From Dyadobacter sp. 50-39 (GTDB taxonomy: Bacteria > Bacteroidota > Bacteroidia > Cytophagales > Spirosomataceae): a stretch of 64,000 bases of DNA. Both the position numbers and the translations under genes were made by a program. This document shows, piece after piece, positions 43,588-50,463 of this stretch. The stretch spans positions 248,001 through 312,000 of the forward strand of contig MKSR01000047.1 of NCBI GenBank assembly GCA_001898145.1. Direction: 5' to 3'. The notes beneath the pieces were generated by a model. That model saw only the letters and a program-made list of their open reading frames with translations, was not told the DNA's origin and searched no databases. Within the stretch, counting starts at the first letter, position 1. Every line of letters begins with the position of its first letter.

Positions 43588-44277
43588 TCAGGATTCTTTC
43601 AGATTGTGAATTTTGTTGAGGCTATCGATCACATAGCGGATCGAGCTGTATGACTTGATGAGCAGTGGTTTGACGTCGGCCGGTTCGTACCAATCCAGTT
43701 TTTCGATCTGCTCCTCGGCCTGAGGGCTCATTTTAGTGTCGTCGACACAATCAAAAAGGTACCATTTGGTCCGCTTAAGAATGCGGCTGTTGTTAAGCGT
43801 GTAAGTGTGCCAGGTAGTGCAGATTTTATCCCTGATCAACGCTTTGACGCCCGTTTCTTCTTCAATCTCACGGGTAGCGGCCACTTTTGAATTCTCGCCT
43901 TTGTCAAGCTTGCCCTTTGGCAAATCCCACATTTTGCGCCGGTACATGAACAACCATTTACCATCCTTCACCACCACGCCACCCGCGGCTTTGATGACCT
44001 TGTATTGTCCCTTGATTTTGTCCTCTACCTCCGATTTTTCGCGGGTAGCCATCGTAATAGAAAGCATTTCTTTCGGAAACTCCTTTTCGAGCATCTGGAT
44101 CACCTGAATGGCACTGGTGGTTGTCGAATTCAGGAACAGCACGTGGCCTGTCAGCATGCTTCTCTGCAACTTTTCGAGCCGAAGATCAACAATATGTTCA
44201 AATCGTGAAGTTTCTGCGGCAGACAACTGGTTGGTCCGTACAATTCTGACTGGACGGTCGTCGAAAAAAATGGTCAT
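43588..44277 (-). CDS. Nudix hydrolase with N-terminal extension
   Basis: The protein has 229 residues. The Nudix box GKLDKGENSKVAATREIEEETGV (about 130-152) is complete. The first 90 residues form a separate alpha/beta domain (TIFFDDRPVRIVRTN, GHVLFLNSTTTSAIQVIQML) that is not part of the Nudix fold. WDLPKGKLDKGE and TWHTYTL recall diadenosine-polyphosphate or MutT-like hydrolases of Bacteroidota. A -7 element (TAATTTTG, 44311-44304 on the minus strand) lies 27 bases upstream. The substrate is unknown. Confidence 0.88.
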   Translation of the reverse strand: MTIFFDDRPVRIVRTNQLSAAETSRFEHIVDLRLEKLQRSMLTGHVLFLNSTTTSAIQVIQMLEKEFPKEMLSITMATREKSEVEDKIKGQYKVIKAAGGVVVKDGKWLFMYRRKMWDLPKGKLDKGENSKVAATREIEEETGVKALIRDKICTTWHTYTLNNSRILKRTKWYLFDCVDDTKMSPQAEEQIEKLDWYEPADVKPLLIKSYSSIRYVIDSLNKIHNLKES

Positions 44278-45685: not shown

Positions 45686-46333
45686 ATGTCGAACGACCTG
45701 GATATTACCAAACGAATCGCCGAGCTGCTTCTGGAAGCGCAGGCTATCAAGCTCAGTCCCGAAAAACCCTTCCAATGGAGCTCGGGCTGGTATTCCCCTA
45801 TATATTGTGATAACCGGGTGGCACTGTCTTACCCCGATACCCGGACCTTTATCAAAAAGGCCCTGGCCGAGCTGATTCGTTCAAAGTATCCGAATGCCCA
45901 GGCGGTGGTGGGTGTTGCCACCGGGGGTATCGCGCAGGGGGCATTGGTAGCCGATCTGCTCGAATTGCCATTTGCCTACGTTCGCCCCGAACCTAAAAAG
46001 CATGGAATGGGCAATCAGATCGAGGGCAGGCTTGAAAAGGGCCAGTCGGTTGTGATCGTAGAAGACCTGATCTCGACCGGAGGAAGCTCCCTGAAAACAG
46101 TTGACGCCCTCCGCGAAGCTGGCATAGAAGTAGTCGGGATGGTAGCGATCTTCACCTACGGCTTTCAGGTTGCCGCCGATAATTTCACAGAAAAGCAAGT
46201 AGAGCTTCATACGATCAGCAACTATAATGCTTTGATAGAGGTAGCGTTGGAGCATAACTACATCGACGCTTCGCAGCAGGAAAGCCTCGCTCAATGGCGA
46301 GAAGCACCAGAGCGGTGGGGGAAAAAGCTGTAA
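45686..46333 (+). CDS. pyrE: Orotate phosphoribosyltransferase
   Basis: It converts orotate and PRPP to OMP in pyrimidine synthesis. The protein has 215 residues. The PRPP loop VVIVEDLISTGGSSLKT is complete, with GVATGGIAQGALVADLL and the flexible catalytic loop AYVRPEPKKHGMGNQIEG. The gene starts two bases after the CNNM/CorC gene, so the two are translationally close or coupled, an unusual partner pair. An imperfect palindromic repeat follows. Confidence 0.96.
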   Translation: MSNDLDITKRIAELLLEAQAIKLSPEKPFQWSSGWYSPIYCDNRVALSYPDTRTFIKKALAELIRSKYPNAQAVVGVATGGIAQGALVADLLELPFAYVRPEPKKHGMGNQIEGRLEKGQSVVIVEDLISTGGSSLKTVDALREAGIEVVGMVAIFTYGFQVAADNFTEKQVELHTISNYNALIEVALEHNYIDASQQESLAQWREAPERWGKKL

Positions 46334-46428: not shown

Positions 46429-47451
46429 TTACCCCCGATGATTATCCAGACTCTCAAATAGCCCTCCAAAGGCCTCTTCCTTCACACCATCGGATTTCAG
46501 GAATTCGTGCGGGAATCCAAGCTCGATCTTACTTACCTCATCCAGTTTTCGCAGCGCGTCTTCCGGCAGGCGGAAGTCAAGGCAGCCCAGCGAGTCCAGT
46601 AGCTGGCTCTCTTTCGATGCCCCAACAATCGGGATCATCACCTGATCGCGGTGACGGGTCCAGTTAATGGCAACCTGGGCCGGAGTCACGCCCAGCTCTG
46701 TGGCCACATCCACCACGGTTTGGGCAATGAGGCTGCTGTGATCGCTTCTGCGGGTGCTGTGGTCAGGTACGCGCCCGGTCTCACCGCGGAGGTATTTGCC
46801 CGTCAGTGCACCACCTCCAATAGCACCCCAGGGTGTAACTGCCAGGTCAAGCGCCTTAGCCATTGGTAGTAAGTCGCGCTCAGGCGTACGTTGCAGGAGC
46901 GAATACTCAAACTGAATGGCAGCAAATGCGTTCCAGCCTCGGAAGTCAGCGATAGTATTAGCTTGTGAAACTATCCACGCCGGTGTATCGGAAATGCCGA
47001 TGTAATGCACCAGGCCACGGGAAACCAGGTCGTCCAGACCACGCATTACCTCCTCGGCGGGCGTGGTGTTATCCCACATGTGTACCCAAAGCAGGTCAAT
47101 GTATTCGGTATTGAGGCGTTTGAGGCTCGATGTTACTGAACGCATCATGTTTTTGCGATGGTTGCCTGCAAAGTTCAGGTCGTCATTACGGTCTTTGAGT
47201 GTAAATTTTGTGGCAAGTACCCAGTGGTCTCGGTCGGTTTCGATAAACTCGCCCACGTACTTTTCCGAGGTGCCTTCCGTGTACCGGTTGGCCGTGTCGA
47301 TAAAGTTGCCGCCTGCCTGGGCGAAGGCCTCGAAAATCTTAAAGCTCTCATGCTTATCCGCTCCCCAACCCCATTCTTTTCCGAATGTCATCGCCCCAAG
47401 GCAAACTTCGGAGACCCGCAAACCTGAGCGGCCCAATAATTGACAACGCAT
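46429..47451 (-). CDS. Aldo/keto reductase
   Basis: The protein has 340 residues. The barrel's catalytic tetrad is visible: Asp and Tyr in FIDTANRYTEG, Lys in VLATKFTL and His in LLWVHMWD. NADPH is bound in the C-terminal GVTPAQVAINWTRHRDQVMIPIVGASKESQL. It belongs to the YajO/YghZ-like group. The physiological substrate is unknown. A -7 element (TAACTTTG, 47530-47523 on the minus strand) lies 72 bases upstream. Confidence 0.92.
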   Translation of the reverse strand: MRCQLLGRSGLRVSEVCLGAMTFGKEWGWGADKHESFKIFEAFAQAGGNFIDTANRYTEGTSEKYVGEFIETDRDHWVLATKFTLKDRNDDLNFAGNHRKNMMRSVTSSLKRLNTEYIDLLWVHMWDNTTPAEEVMRGLDDLVSRGLVHYIGISDTPAWIVSQANTIADFRGWNAFAAIQFEYSLLQRTPERDLLPMAKALDLAVTPWGAIGGGALTGKYLRGETGRVPDHSTRRSDHSSLIAQTVVDVATELGVTPAQVAINWTRHRDQVMIPIVGASKESQLLDSLGCLDFRLPEDALRKLDEVSKIELGFPHEFLKSDGVKEEAFGGLFESLDNHRG

Positions 47452-47592
47452 AGTGATATAATGATAATTTAAAAGAAGATATAGCTCCGGAAACTTACCT
47501 GACAGCGTTGCTTTTTGTACCGCAAAGTTATATTCTTACCGGCCAAATGTATTTATATTGTACCAAAATTTGAATCTTTTACAACACACTCA

Positions 47593-49695
47593 ATGATCGA
47601 CGTTGCCTACCCTTACTTTGATACCAATCTTAGCTGGCTTTCGAATAATTACAGGTTGCTGCTGGAAGCAAACGACGAAACGGTACCGGTAAGGGAGCGT
47701 TTGAGGTTTTTGGGTATCTACGCCTATCAGACCAAGGAGTTCTATCGGGTAAGGATCCCGAACTTGCTCGCGATGGGGGAGGTGAGCAATGACATTCGTT
47801 CCAAGCTGAATATTTTCCCGGAGTCATTGCTGGAACATGTTTATGAAACGGTGGAGAATCAGCTCCGCGAATTCAATGACATCCTGTTATCCCGTATACT
47901 GCCTGCATTGCTGGATCAGGGGCTGCATTTGTACTATCGGGAGTCGTTCGTAGCCGAACATGCTGCTTTTGCCCGCCGTTTTTTTCTGGACAAATTGTTC
48001 CGGTATCTGCAGCCGGTATTCCTGGATAGTCGCCGCATGCTGAAAACACCGGCATTCGAGTCCAAGCAACTTTACCTTATTGTGCGTATGCAGCATAAGG
48101 AGGATGCGCAGGAAGAGGATTGGTATGCGACGGTAAACGTGCCTTCTGAGCCTTACGGCCGTTTTCTGGAATTGCCTGAATGGGAGGGAAAGCGCCATGT
48201 TGCGTTCCTGGAAGATGTGATTCGCGAAAACCTGCCTGTCCTGTTTCCAGGCTATAATATTTTGGAAAGTTATGCCTTACGCGTTGAACGTGAAACCGAA
48301 TTGTCTATCGAGGATGAATATCCGATGCAGGTAGCGCAACGCATTTTGAAGCAGCTTGAAAAGAGGAATTTCGTGCAGCCAGCGCAGTATTTCTATGAAT
48401 CGGCGATGCCGCTGTACGTTCGCGAATACCTGGTAGGGAAGGTATCGGTCCCGATGAACGATTTTCACGAACGCGGCGATTATCTGTACATGCAGGACCT
48501 GGCCAGGTTTCCTATCGTGTCCCGCCGCCTCGATTATCCGTTCCAGCGGCCGGTCCAGAATCCCGAATTTGATCAAACCAAATCGGTTTTTGAAGTTATT
48601 CAGCAGGGCGATCAGATGCTGCATTTGCCTTACCAATCCTACGAGCCGATCGTCAGGTTCTTCAACGAGGCTGCGGTGGACCCGCACGTTCGCGAAATCC
48701 ACGTTTCTTTGTATAAGATCAGTCCTAACTCATTTATTTTAAACTCGTTAATCAGTGCTTCCAGGAACGGAAAGCGGGTAACGACTTACGTAGAGCTGAA
48801 TACCAAACTCGATATCCAGGAAAACCTGCAATGGTCGAAGAAGATGCGCGACGCGGGGGTGAAAATCCTGCTAAGTGTGCCTGGCCTGAAAGTGCACGCG
48901 AAGATGGCGTTGGTTAAGCGCAAAGTGCAAAAGGGTTGGGAACGCTATGCATTCCTGGGCACGGGCGGCTTTTACAGGCTGACCAGCCGCGAGATTGTCG
49001 ACCACGCATTGCTTACCTCGCACAGGGAGCTGACCAACGAGCTGGAATTGCTCTTCGGCTACCTGTCCACACAAGATGAGCCCAAGAAGTATAAATATCT
49101 TCCTTTCAATACATTACAGGTAACACAGTTCAACCTTCAAAAGCGATTGCTGGATTTGATGGACCGCGAAATTGCCAACTGCAATGCGGGCCTTAAATCG
49201 TTCATTACAATCAAGATCAACCAGTTGCAGGACCATATTCTGATCGACAAGCTTTATCAGGCCGGTCAGGCAGGTGTGCCGGTTCATGTGATCGTGAGCG
49301 AGAGTTGCGGTTTAATCTCGGGGCTGCCATCGATCAGTGATAACATTATCGTCAGCCGCCACGTGGACCGGTACATAGAGAACACACGGATATTTCATTT
49401 TGGCAACCGGGGCAATGATGAGCTTTATCTTACCTCATGCGACTGGACGCACCGCAACCTGCACCGACGGATTGATATTTGCTTTCCGGTGTTGGATGAG
49501 ACCTTGAAAAGCCAGATGCGTACCGTGCTACGTAACTACCTGAATGACAACCAGAAATCGGTTAGGCTGGACCTTTATCAAAATAATTTGCGCATTACCG
49601 ATGAGTCGCGTGGAAAGGTGCGCGCACAGGAAGCGAACTACCGGTTAGTGGAGAAAATTGAGCGAAATGGGCTTTCACGGCGTTCAGAAATATAA
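47593..49695 (+). CDS. Divergent PPK1-family protein (polyphosphate kinase 1-like) with altered ATP site
   Basis: The protein has 700 residues from the ATG at 47593 (MIDVAYPYFDTNLSWL). It spans all PPK1 domains: the N domain (TNLSWLSNNYRLLLEA), H domain, C1 and C2. Numbering nearly equals E. coli PPK1. The phospho-histidine is kept (H435 in GLKVHAKM). The Mg2+-contact Arg375 and Arg405 are Lys (LYKIS, ELNTKLD). The ATP contacts Asn45, Tyr468, Arg564 and His592 are Gln46, Ile468, Ser569 and Asn597. GTGNxN is GTGGFY. The canonical PPK1 reaction, ATP to polyphosphate, is therefore doubtful. The residue list for E. coli is from memory of the known structure. An alternative upstream ATG at 47515 adds an unlikely leader. 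Confidence 0.85.
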   Translation: MIDVAYPYFDTNLSWLSNNYRLLLEANDETVPVRERLRFLGIYAYQTKEFYRVRIPNLLAMGEVSNDIRSKLNIFPESLLEHVYETVENQLREFNDILLSRILPALLDQGLHLYYRESFVAEHAAFARRFFLDKLFRYLQPVFLDSRRMLKTPAFESKQLYLIVRMQHKEDAQEEDWYATVNVPSEPYGRFLELPEWEGKRHVAFLEDVIRENLPVLFPGYNILESYALRVERETELSIEDEYPMQVAQRILKQLEKRNFVQPAQYFYESAMPLYVREYLVGKVSVPMNDFHERGDYLYMQDLARFPIVSRRLDYPFQRPVQNPEFDQTKSVFEVIQQGDQMLHLPYQSYEPIVRFFNEAAVDPHVREIHVSLYKISPNSFILNSLISASRNGKRVTTYVELNTKLDIQENLQWSKKMRDAGVKILLSVPGLKVHAKMALVKRKVQKGWERYAFLGTGGFYRLTSREIVDHALLTSHRELTNELELLFGYLSTQDEPKKYKYLPFNTLQVTQFNLQKRLLDLMDREIANCNAGLKSFITIKINQLQDHILIDKLYQAGQAGVPVHVIVSESCGLISGLPSISDNIIVSRHVDRYIENTRIFHFGNRGNDELYLTSCDWTHRNLHRRIDICFPVLDETLKSQMRTVLRNYLNDNQKSVRLDLYQNNLRITDESRGKVRAQEANYRLVEKIERNGLSRRSEI

Positions 49696-49795
49696 GCTTT
49701 CCGACGGCTTAAAAAAATTTTACCAGTATTAAATTTACGAATCGCCTGTCAGATTTAATGGACGGCATTTGTAGAAAATATAAAGAAATTAGGCC

Positions 49796-49826
49796 TTGAA
49801 GTGTAAGAGGTAAAAGGTTATATTTG
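49796..49826 (+). promoter_or_regulatory. Bacteroidota-type promoter for the TetR gene
   Basis: TTG (49796-49798), 20 bases, then TATATTTG (49819-49826). The predicted start is near 49833, about 37 bases before the TetR ATG. Confidence 0.72.
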
Positions 49827-49869
49827 AATCACATCATTTCTGAATCAATCCTAAAATATATTTTTAAGC

Positions 49870-50463
49870 ATGGGAATAGTAGAGCGAAGAGAGCGGCTTA
49901 GAATACAGGTACGCTCAGACATCGTTAAGACAGCCAAGGACATAGCCCGCGAGGATGGCTGGACGGCTGTCTCGATTCGCAAAATCGCTGATGTAATTGA
50001 ATACAGCCCGCCTATTCTCTACGAATATTTTGAAAGCAAGGACAAGCTCCTTGAAGCCATTCGTCTGGAAGGCTTCGATTATCTGCAAGGAGAGTTTGTA
50101 AAGATAAAAGGGCATTTCAGTAACCCGCAGAAACAACTTGTGGAGGTTGCGCAGACCATTTGGCATTTCGCTGTCGAAAATCCAGAGGTTTTTCAGGTCA
50201 TGTTCAATCTGGAAGGTGCTTATTGTGATTCGAAAAAGGCATATTCACAAGCAATGAGCATCAAAGACAACCCTGTATGGGAAATGATCGCAGGTCTGCG
50301 TCCCAAGTCGGGTGAAATGGTTACCAAAACTTATTATGAATGGTGGTGCCTGACCTTCGGGTTTATCAGCATTACCATGACTACCCAACCACGTTATGCC
50401 TTCCCTCAGGCTGAGCCTGTCTACATGGAAGGTATCCGGCGATTCATCCGGAGCATTATGTAA
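49870..50463 (+). CDS. TetR family transcriptional regulator
   Basis: The protein has 197 residues. The helix-turn-helix covers [49 protein letters not shown]; the ligand domain follows and has the WHG-type core ([31 protein letters not shown]). The ligand and target genes are unknown: no transporter or enzyme gene lies beside it. Its last eight bases overlap the end of the convergent cysE gene. A consensus promoter is at 49796-49826. Confidence 0.9.

Follow-up and report, generated by a model that had tools for sequence, protein, structure and literature searches.

What does a PPK1-like protein do once it has kept the phospho-acceptor histidine of its family and exchanged the residues around it? 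A gene in the window analysed here, a stretch of 64,000 nucleotides from the 7.72-Mb genome of Dyadobacter sp. 50-39, raises this question. The gene (47593..49695, forward strand) encodes 700 amino acids from an ATG start, as supported by the open reading frame, by Pfam and phmmer matches, and by an alignment of 28 rows in which M1 of this form is invariant; a longer in-frame option, a TTG at 47515, would give 726 residues. We use the name PPKL for the orthologous group of this protein. It matches PF13089, PF02503, PF17941 and PF13090 (the N, middle, C1 and C2 domains of PPK), each above the Pfam cut-off, and scores 551.4 bits against TIGR03705, the NCBI equivalog model of PPK1, for which the cut-off is 465.85. 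PPKL is thus a member of PPK1 by homology and fold, but by its residues it does not qualify as a working ATP-polyphosphate kinase. Because it passes the equivalog cut-off, its automatic name is probably wrong, and for the same reason a tally of ppk1 in such bacteria may contain a protein that probably does not synthesize polyphosphate.

Active-site residues and fold of PPKL

We used the E. coli MG1655 PPK1 as the reference for residue numbering, which was checked at all seven sites considered (N45, R375, R405, H435, Y468, R564 and H592). We take N45, R375, R405, Y468 and R564 to be key contacts of the E. coli site. The active-site passages of PMC3163519 describe H435 as the phospho-acceptor histidine of PPK1, name E623 as the partner of H435 and D470 as that of the acid H592, and place ATP on one side of a tunnel and polyphosphate on the positively charged other side. 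Alignment with MG1655 PPK1 bore out the residue changes proposed by the first-pass annotation, namely N45Q, R375K, R405K, Y468I, R564S and H592N with H435 retained, as well as the conversion of GTGNFN to GTGGFY and of SNNLDEF to AYQTKEF. The phmmer alignments with four solved PPK1 chains agreed on the replaced residues, and the agreement of pairwise, multiple and structural comparisons rules out an alignment artefact. The numbering, which that annotation had called almost identical to that of E. coli, coincides in the middle of the protein (e.g. 375-470), whereas it is shifted by 1 at position 45 and by 5 at 564-623.

All codons given here lie on the forward strand. E. coli N45 corresponds to Q46 (47728..47730), with Q in 50, E in 3 and H in 3 of the 56 PPKL rows. 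Lysine stands at 375 (48715..48717) and at 405 (48805..48807) in 56/56 PPKL, in contrast to arginine in 87/87 other PPK1, while H435 (48895..48897) is kept in both sets without exception. The loop G459-I468 (48967..48996), NFNEKTARLY in E. coli, is rebuilt, with G459 in 55/56 PPKL and position 468 occupied by I in 40, F in 14, L in one and S in one; confidence of the structure model dips in 461-470. R564 is replaced by S569 (49297..49299; 53 S and one each of N, T and G), and the general acid H592 by N597 (49381..49383; N in 56/56). D470 (49000..49002), the partner of H592 in E. coli, is kept in 56/56, and E623, the partner of H435, is conservatively replaced by D628 (49474..49476; D in 56/56, E in 87/87 others). 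The earlier statement that every key contact besides H435 is changed is slightly overstated: K433, K437 (56/56), D470, R594 and R621 are kept, E623D is conservative, and R375K and R405K preserve the charge.

The comparison set of 87 other PPK1 rows consists of 51 rows and 36 more from the class; L139 (a broken frame with canonical readable sites), L003 (identical to L004) and other identical rows were left out of the counts. All seven sites are kept in 87/87 of these rows. Since the replacements at 375, 405 and 592 occur in 56/56 PPKL, positions 45, 468 and 564 are changed in 56/56, and none of the 87 others is changed, the differences are not due to chance. Compared with the solved enzymes of E. 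coli (1xdo, 9uuh, 9urj, 9uri) and P. gingivalis (2o8r), every PPKL has replaced six catalytic and five more invariant columns. These are F17, N45, R375, R405, E408, N459, Y468, R564, H592, M614 and E623, that is, 11 of the 55 columns that never vary among the 87 rows, and they cover every named catalytic site but H435, six of seven (hypergeometric 1e-4). This enrichment indicates that the change was aimed at the active site and was not general decay. With the 51 canonical rows, 14/66 invariant columns differed in every PPKL; the count fell with 87 rows because some canonical PPK1 deviate at 377, 461 and 462. Of 22 positions that are K or R in no less than 95% of the 87 rows, 19 remain so in no less than 95% of PPKL, the three lost being R10, R261 and R564. 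New residues, K375, K405, N592 and T614, are fixed in the former ATP site. PPKL has kept the nucleophile H435 and its acidic partner and lost the general acid. The Asn at the H592 position, found in 56/56, also sets PPKL apart from the phospholipase D superfamily (e.g. PLD3, 7e0m): without the second histidine, the two-histidine chemistry of that superfamily is unavailable to it.

Could PPKL still work as an ATP-dependent polyphosphate kinase whose site is unusual, with lysines doing the work of two arginines? The equivalog score, the conservative R375K and R405K, the retained H435 and the intact fold would fit this explanation. However, N45, Y468, R564, H592, F17, E408, N459 and M614, invariant in 87/87 other PPK1, are replaced in 56/56 PPKL, and the relevant passage of PMC6537752 uses EcPPK1 H435A/H592A as a catalytically impaired control. 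We consider such a kinase quite unlikely; lacking N45, Y468, R564 and the general acid H592, PPKL probably makes no polyphosphate from ATP.

A first AlphaFold model used no rows other than PPKL and was poor (pLDDT 68.7). The second model, for which the alignment combined PPKL with four canonical PPK1 from viral contigs and which therefore leans on canonical sequences, reached a pLDDT of 88.0 and showed the full PPK1 fold, superimposing on the P. gingivalis PPK1 with 2.2 Å over 638 residues. In structural alignments PPKL is 30-37% identical to the solved PPK1 chains. Its N-terminal domain is well kept, and the model confidence drops in 371-380, 401-410 and 461-470, which are the remodelled loops. 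The viral contigs (L193-L197) are IMG/VR entries of 41-216 kb, filed as viral, that carry PPK1; four of the genes are full length and canonical, and the fifth is partial.

Single origin, fixation and selection of the rebuilt site

PPKL comprises 56 distinct rows, from 48/48 Dyadobacter genomes and from 8 carriers that belong to seven other genera, which include Rhabdobacter, an uncultured Persicitalea, Arundinibacter and Cytophagaceae SCN 52-12. Within the family sample it was found at no less than 54% identity in 42/200 genomes and 8/36 genera. The best match outside the genus in the order sample (390 genomes) had 44% identity and was canonical, and the next best match in the class sample (395 genomes) reached 686 bits (L097, canonical) versus 1438 for the gene itself. 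We also saw no repeated independent loss: the rows examined at 40-44% identity are canonical at all seven sites, as are the 36 class PPK1 and the four full-length PPK1 on viral contigs. A literature search over titles and the openings of abstracts found no paper on such a PPK1-derived clade. Two of the 48 Dyadobacter matches (G036 and G032) show an internal stop in the aligned span; these stops lie near the C-terminus, as the open frames still measure 701 and 695 amino acids.

Trees of PPK1 had been suggested as a check on whether the replacements define a clade. In quick trees with a single support measure, PPKL forms one clade with a support of 100, also when the 14 trait columns are removed. 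Its stem is long, 0.9 changes per column or 0.68 with the trait columns removed, and it branches next to the canonical L123 (support 90 and 88).

A search for a canonical ppk1 elsewhere in the source genome, also suggested earlier, found two, L001 (775 amino acids) and L002 (678 amino acids). PPKL belongs to the same family, with about 29% identity to L001 and 41% to L002, but both paralogues keep all seven catalytic residues. PPK2 is also matched once in the genome and Ppx/GppA three times, the third time weakly. Another PPK1 match is present in 56/56 PPKL genomes. A distant match of the L001 type (27-29% identity) occurs in 48/48 Dyadobacter and a match of the L002 type in 38/48, the other 10 being without it. 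The eight carriers in other genera are without the L002 type and have one further, more distant PPK1 match each; the one that was read (L153 of G070) is canonical. Two copies of the L002 type, besides PPKL and the L001 type, occur in Dyadobacter G026, G035 and G038. In another Dyadobacter, one of the 38, the canonical PPK1 of the L002 type is split over two overlapping frames (G043:C1:4657373-4659368), although PPKL is intact there, and an isolated N-terminal piece of PPK1, about 115 amino acids long, lies at G030:C1:247322-247636.

The company of other PPK1 proteins bears on a further explanation, that PPKL is a catalytically dead partner modulating canonical PPK1 in mixed oligomers. The yeast proteins Vtc2 and Vtc3 are non-catalytic and are said to modulate the polyphosphate polymerase Vtc4. 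PPKL would be comparable as a sister of a polyphosphate polymerase lacking its activity, although the folds are unrelated and non-homologous, and a mixed complex of PPKL is hypothetical. Such a role would suit the presence of another PPK1 in every PPKL genome and the well-kept fold and N-terminal domain, and the structural passages of PMC3163519 describe PPK1 as an interlocked dimer. However, ten Dyadobacter and the eight carriers in other genera would have only a more distant PPK1 as the partner, and a scaffold does not need H435, which is fixed in 56/56. We regard the dead partner as an improbable explanation.

We compared the rates of evolution of PPKL and its paralogue. In all 55 pairs among the 11 genomes that carry only one copy of the L002 type, PPKL is the more conserved protein, with a mean identity of 0.808 versus 0.705; a version with 14 genomes, including the three with two L002-type copies, gave the same result in 90/91 pairs. 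The dN/dS ratios, rough Nei-Gojobori estimates with dS > 0.9 in most pairs, were 0.009-0.031 for PPKL over the seven listed pairs that gave a defined value (0.009 and 0.031 for the two with dS near 0.2, 0.012-0.027 for five more) and 0.038-0.047 for the L002 type (three pairs); a median and range over 66 pairs, which included undefined values, were not used. The loss of catalytic residues could by itself point to a decaying gene copy without function, but the presence of PPKL in 48/48 Dyadobacter, the low dN/dS and an evolution slower than that of the canonical paralogue refute decay, to which we give next to no credence. The low dN/dS, the slower evolution and the PPK1 fold agree with the first-pass view that the gene is under selection with frame and fold kept. 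We conclude that the nucleotide and acid site of PPK1 was rebuilt once in PPKL, became fixed and is maintained by selection, while the fold, H435 and most basic positions were kept. Selection, fold, a single clade and the two canonical ppk1 genes in the genome together make the role of an ordinary ATP-polyphosphate kinase, already doubted in the annotation, unlikely; very probably, PPKL is not such an enzyme.

Polyphosphate binding and possible function of PPKL

The retention of the PPK1 fold, of H435 with an acidic partner and of most basic positions suggests that polyphosphate is most likely still bound in the tunnel of PPKL, for which we have reasonable though limited confidence. The loss of the conserved basic residues R10, R261 and R564 counts against it. 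A polyphosphate-bound entry of E. coli PPK1 (9urj) has Ala at 564 according to its chain letters, so that the loss of R564 need not stop polyphosphate binding.

Our leading explanation, which we hold at about even confidence, is that PPKL is a nucleotide-independent polyphosphate-binding PPK1, derived by duplication, that senses or regulates polyphosphate. The duplication of a canonical PPK1 would date back to an ancestor that Dyadobacter shares with neighbouring genera, and the copy would have come to lie behind pyrE. Its ATP/ADP-handling site was rebuilt on the one long stem branch and then frozen by selection. H435 might touch, or be phosphorylated by, the end of the polyphosphate chain, and PPKL would report the polyphosphate level or regulate the use of polyphosphate, whereas a canonical PPK1 of the same cell would carry out the synthesis. 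The conservation of H435 in 56/56 counts against this reading, as a pure sensor does not obviously need it. A covalent version would make use of the histidine. Lacking an ATP/ADP site, PPKL would be limited to the half-reaction on the polyphosphate side: the chain end would phosphorylate H435, and the phospho-protein would report polyphosphate or, through its hydrolysis, spend it without any nucleotide. This possibility is a tentative one; if true, hydrolysis of phospho-H435 would make PPKL an exopolyphosphatase derived from PPK1. Overall, a sensor or regulator seems somewhat more likely than another enzyme. As a polyphosphate-binding sensor or regulator, PPKL would be a PPK1 in which natural selection has parted the handling of polyphosphate from that of ATP, and it could serve as a clean tool for asking how the two halves of the PPK1 active site contribute and whether bacteria own dedicated polyphosphate sensors.

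Gene neighbourhood of PPKL

None of the genes around PPKL hints at polyphosphate signalling, which counts against our leading explanation. The one neighbour that stays constant is a gene recognized as pyrE-like (45686..46333, forward strand), upstream of PPKL and on the same strand in 45/45 loci with a flank (42 distinct). The gap is 3 nt in L078. In many loci, including the one described here, an aldo/keto reductase gene on the opposite strand separates the two (46429..47451, reverse strand; Pfam PF00248); it is absent from some PPKL loci. In eight relatives without PPKL, no PPK1 was found within the short pyrE flanks. We treat the link between pyrE and PPKL as a lead only.

This location might tie PPKL to pyrimidine or PRPP metabolism if it were a phosphotransferase with other partners, in which a phospho-H435 cycle runs with a different donor or acceptor (polyphosphate to water, a protein or a small molecule). 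The conservation of H435, K437, D470, R594, R621 and an acid at 623 in 56/56 would be unusual for a dead enzyme, and the residues newly fixed in the former ATP site would suit new partners. However, Asn replaces H592, which acts as the acid in the PPK1 reaction, throughout, no substrate is indicated, the adjacency to pyrE may be passive, and many loci have the intervening opposite-strand gene. We therefore regard this activity as doubtful.

Downstream of PPKL, a TetR-family regulator (49870..50463, forward strand; Pfam PF00440) follows in 46/46 loci with a flank (43 distinct). We dropped the idea of a PPKL-TetR operon: the regulator has its own conserved promoter-like stretch and is probably a separate unit, a search of 111 genomes gave 54 with a TetR match, of which 38 are without PPKL, and the order ROK-peroxiredoxin-TetR-cysE stands without PPKL in L151 and L152, from both g32 genomes examined. 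Genes that we take to be ROK-kinase-like lie between PPKL and TetR in the six loci of other genera that were listed gene by gene besides L078, some together with presumably SRAP-like and peroxiredoxin-like genes. Because of these intervening genes, the PPKL-free TetR loci and the separate promoter-like stretch, the adjacency in Dyadobacter looks secondary.

Two minor observations concern the flanks. Before the TetR start, at 49720-49880, a strongly conserved stretch (CTTGA ... TTATATTTG) is present in most aligned Dyadobacter loci and presumably resembles the Bacteroidota promoter form. Further upstream, a Nudix protein is encoded at 43588-44277 on the reverse strand, in which about 95 residues precede the Nudix domain; the same type of Nudix gene adjoins pyrE in three of the eight relatives without PPKL.
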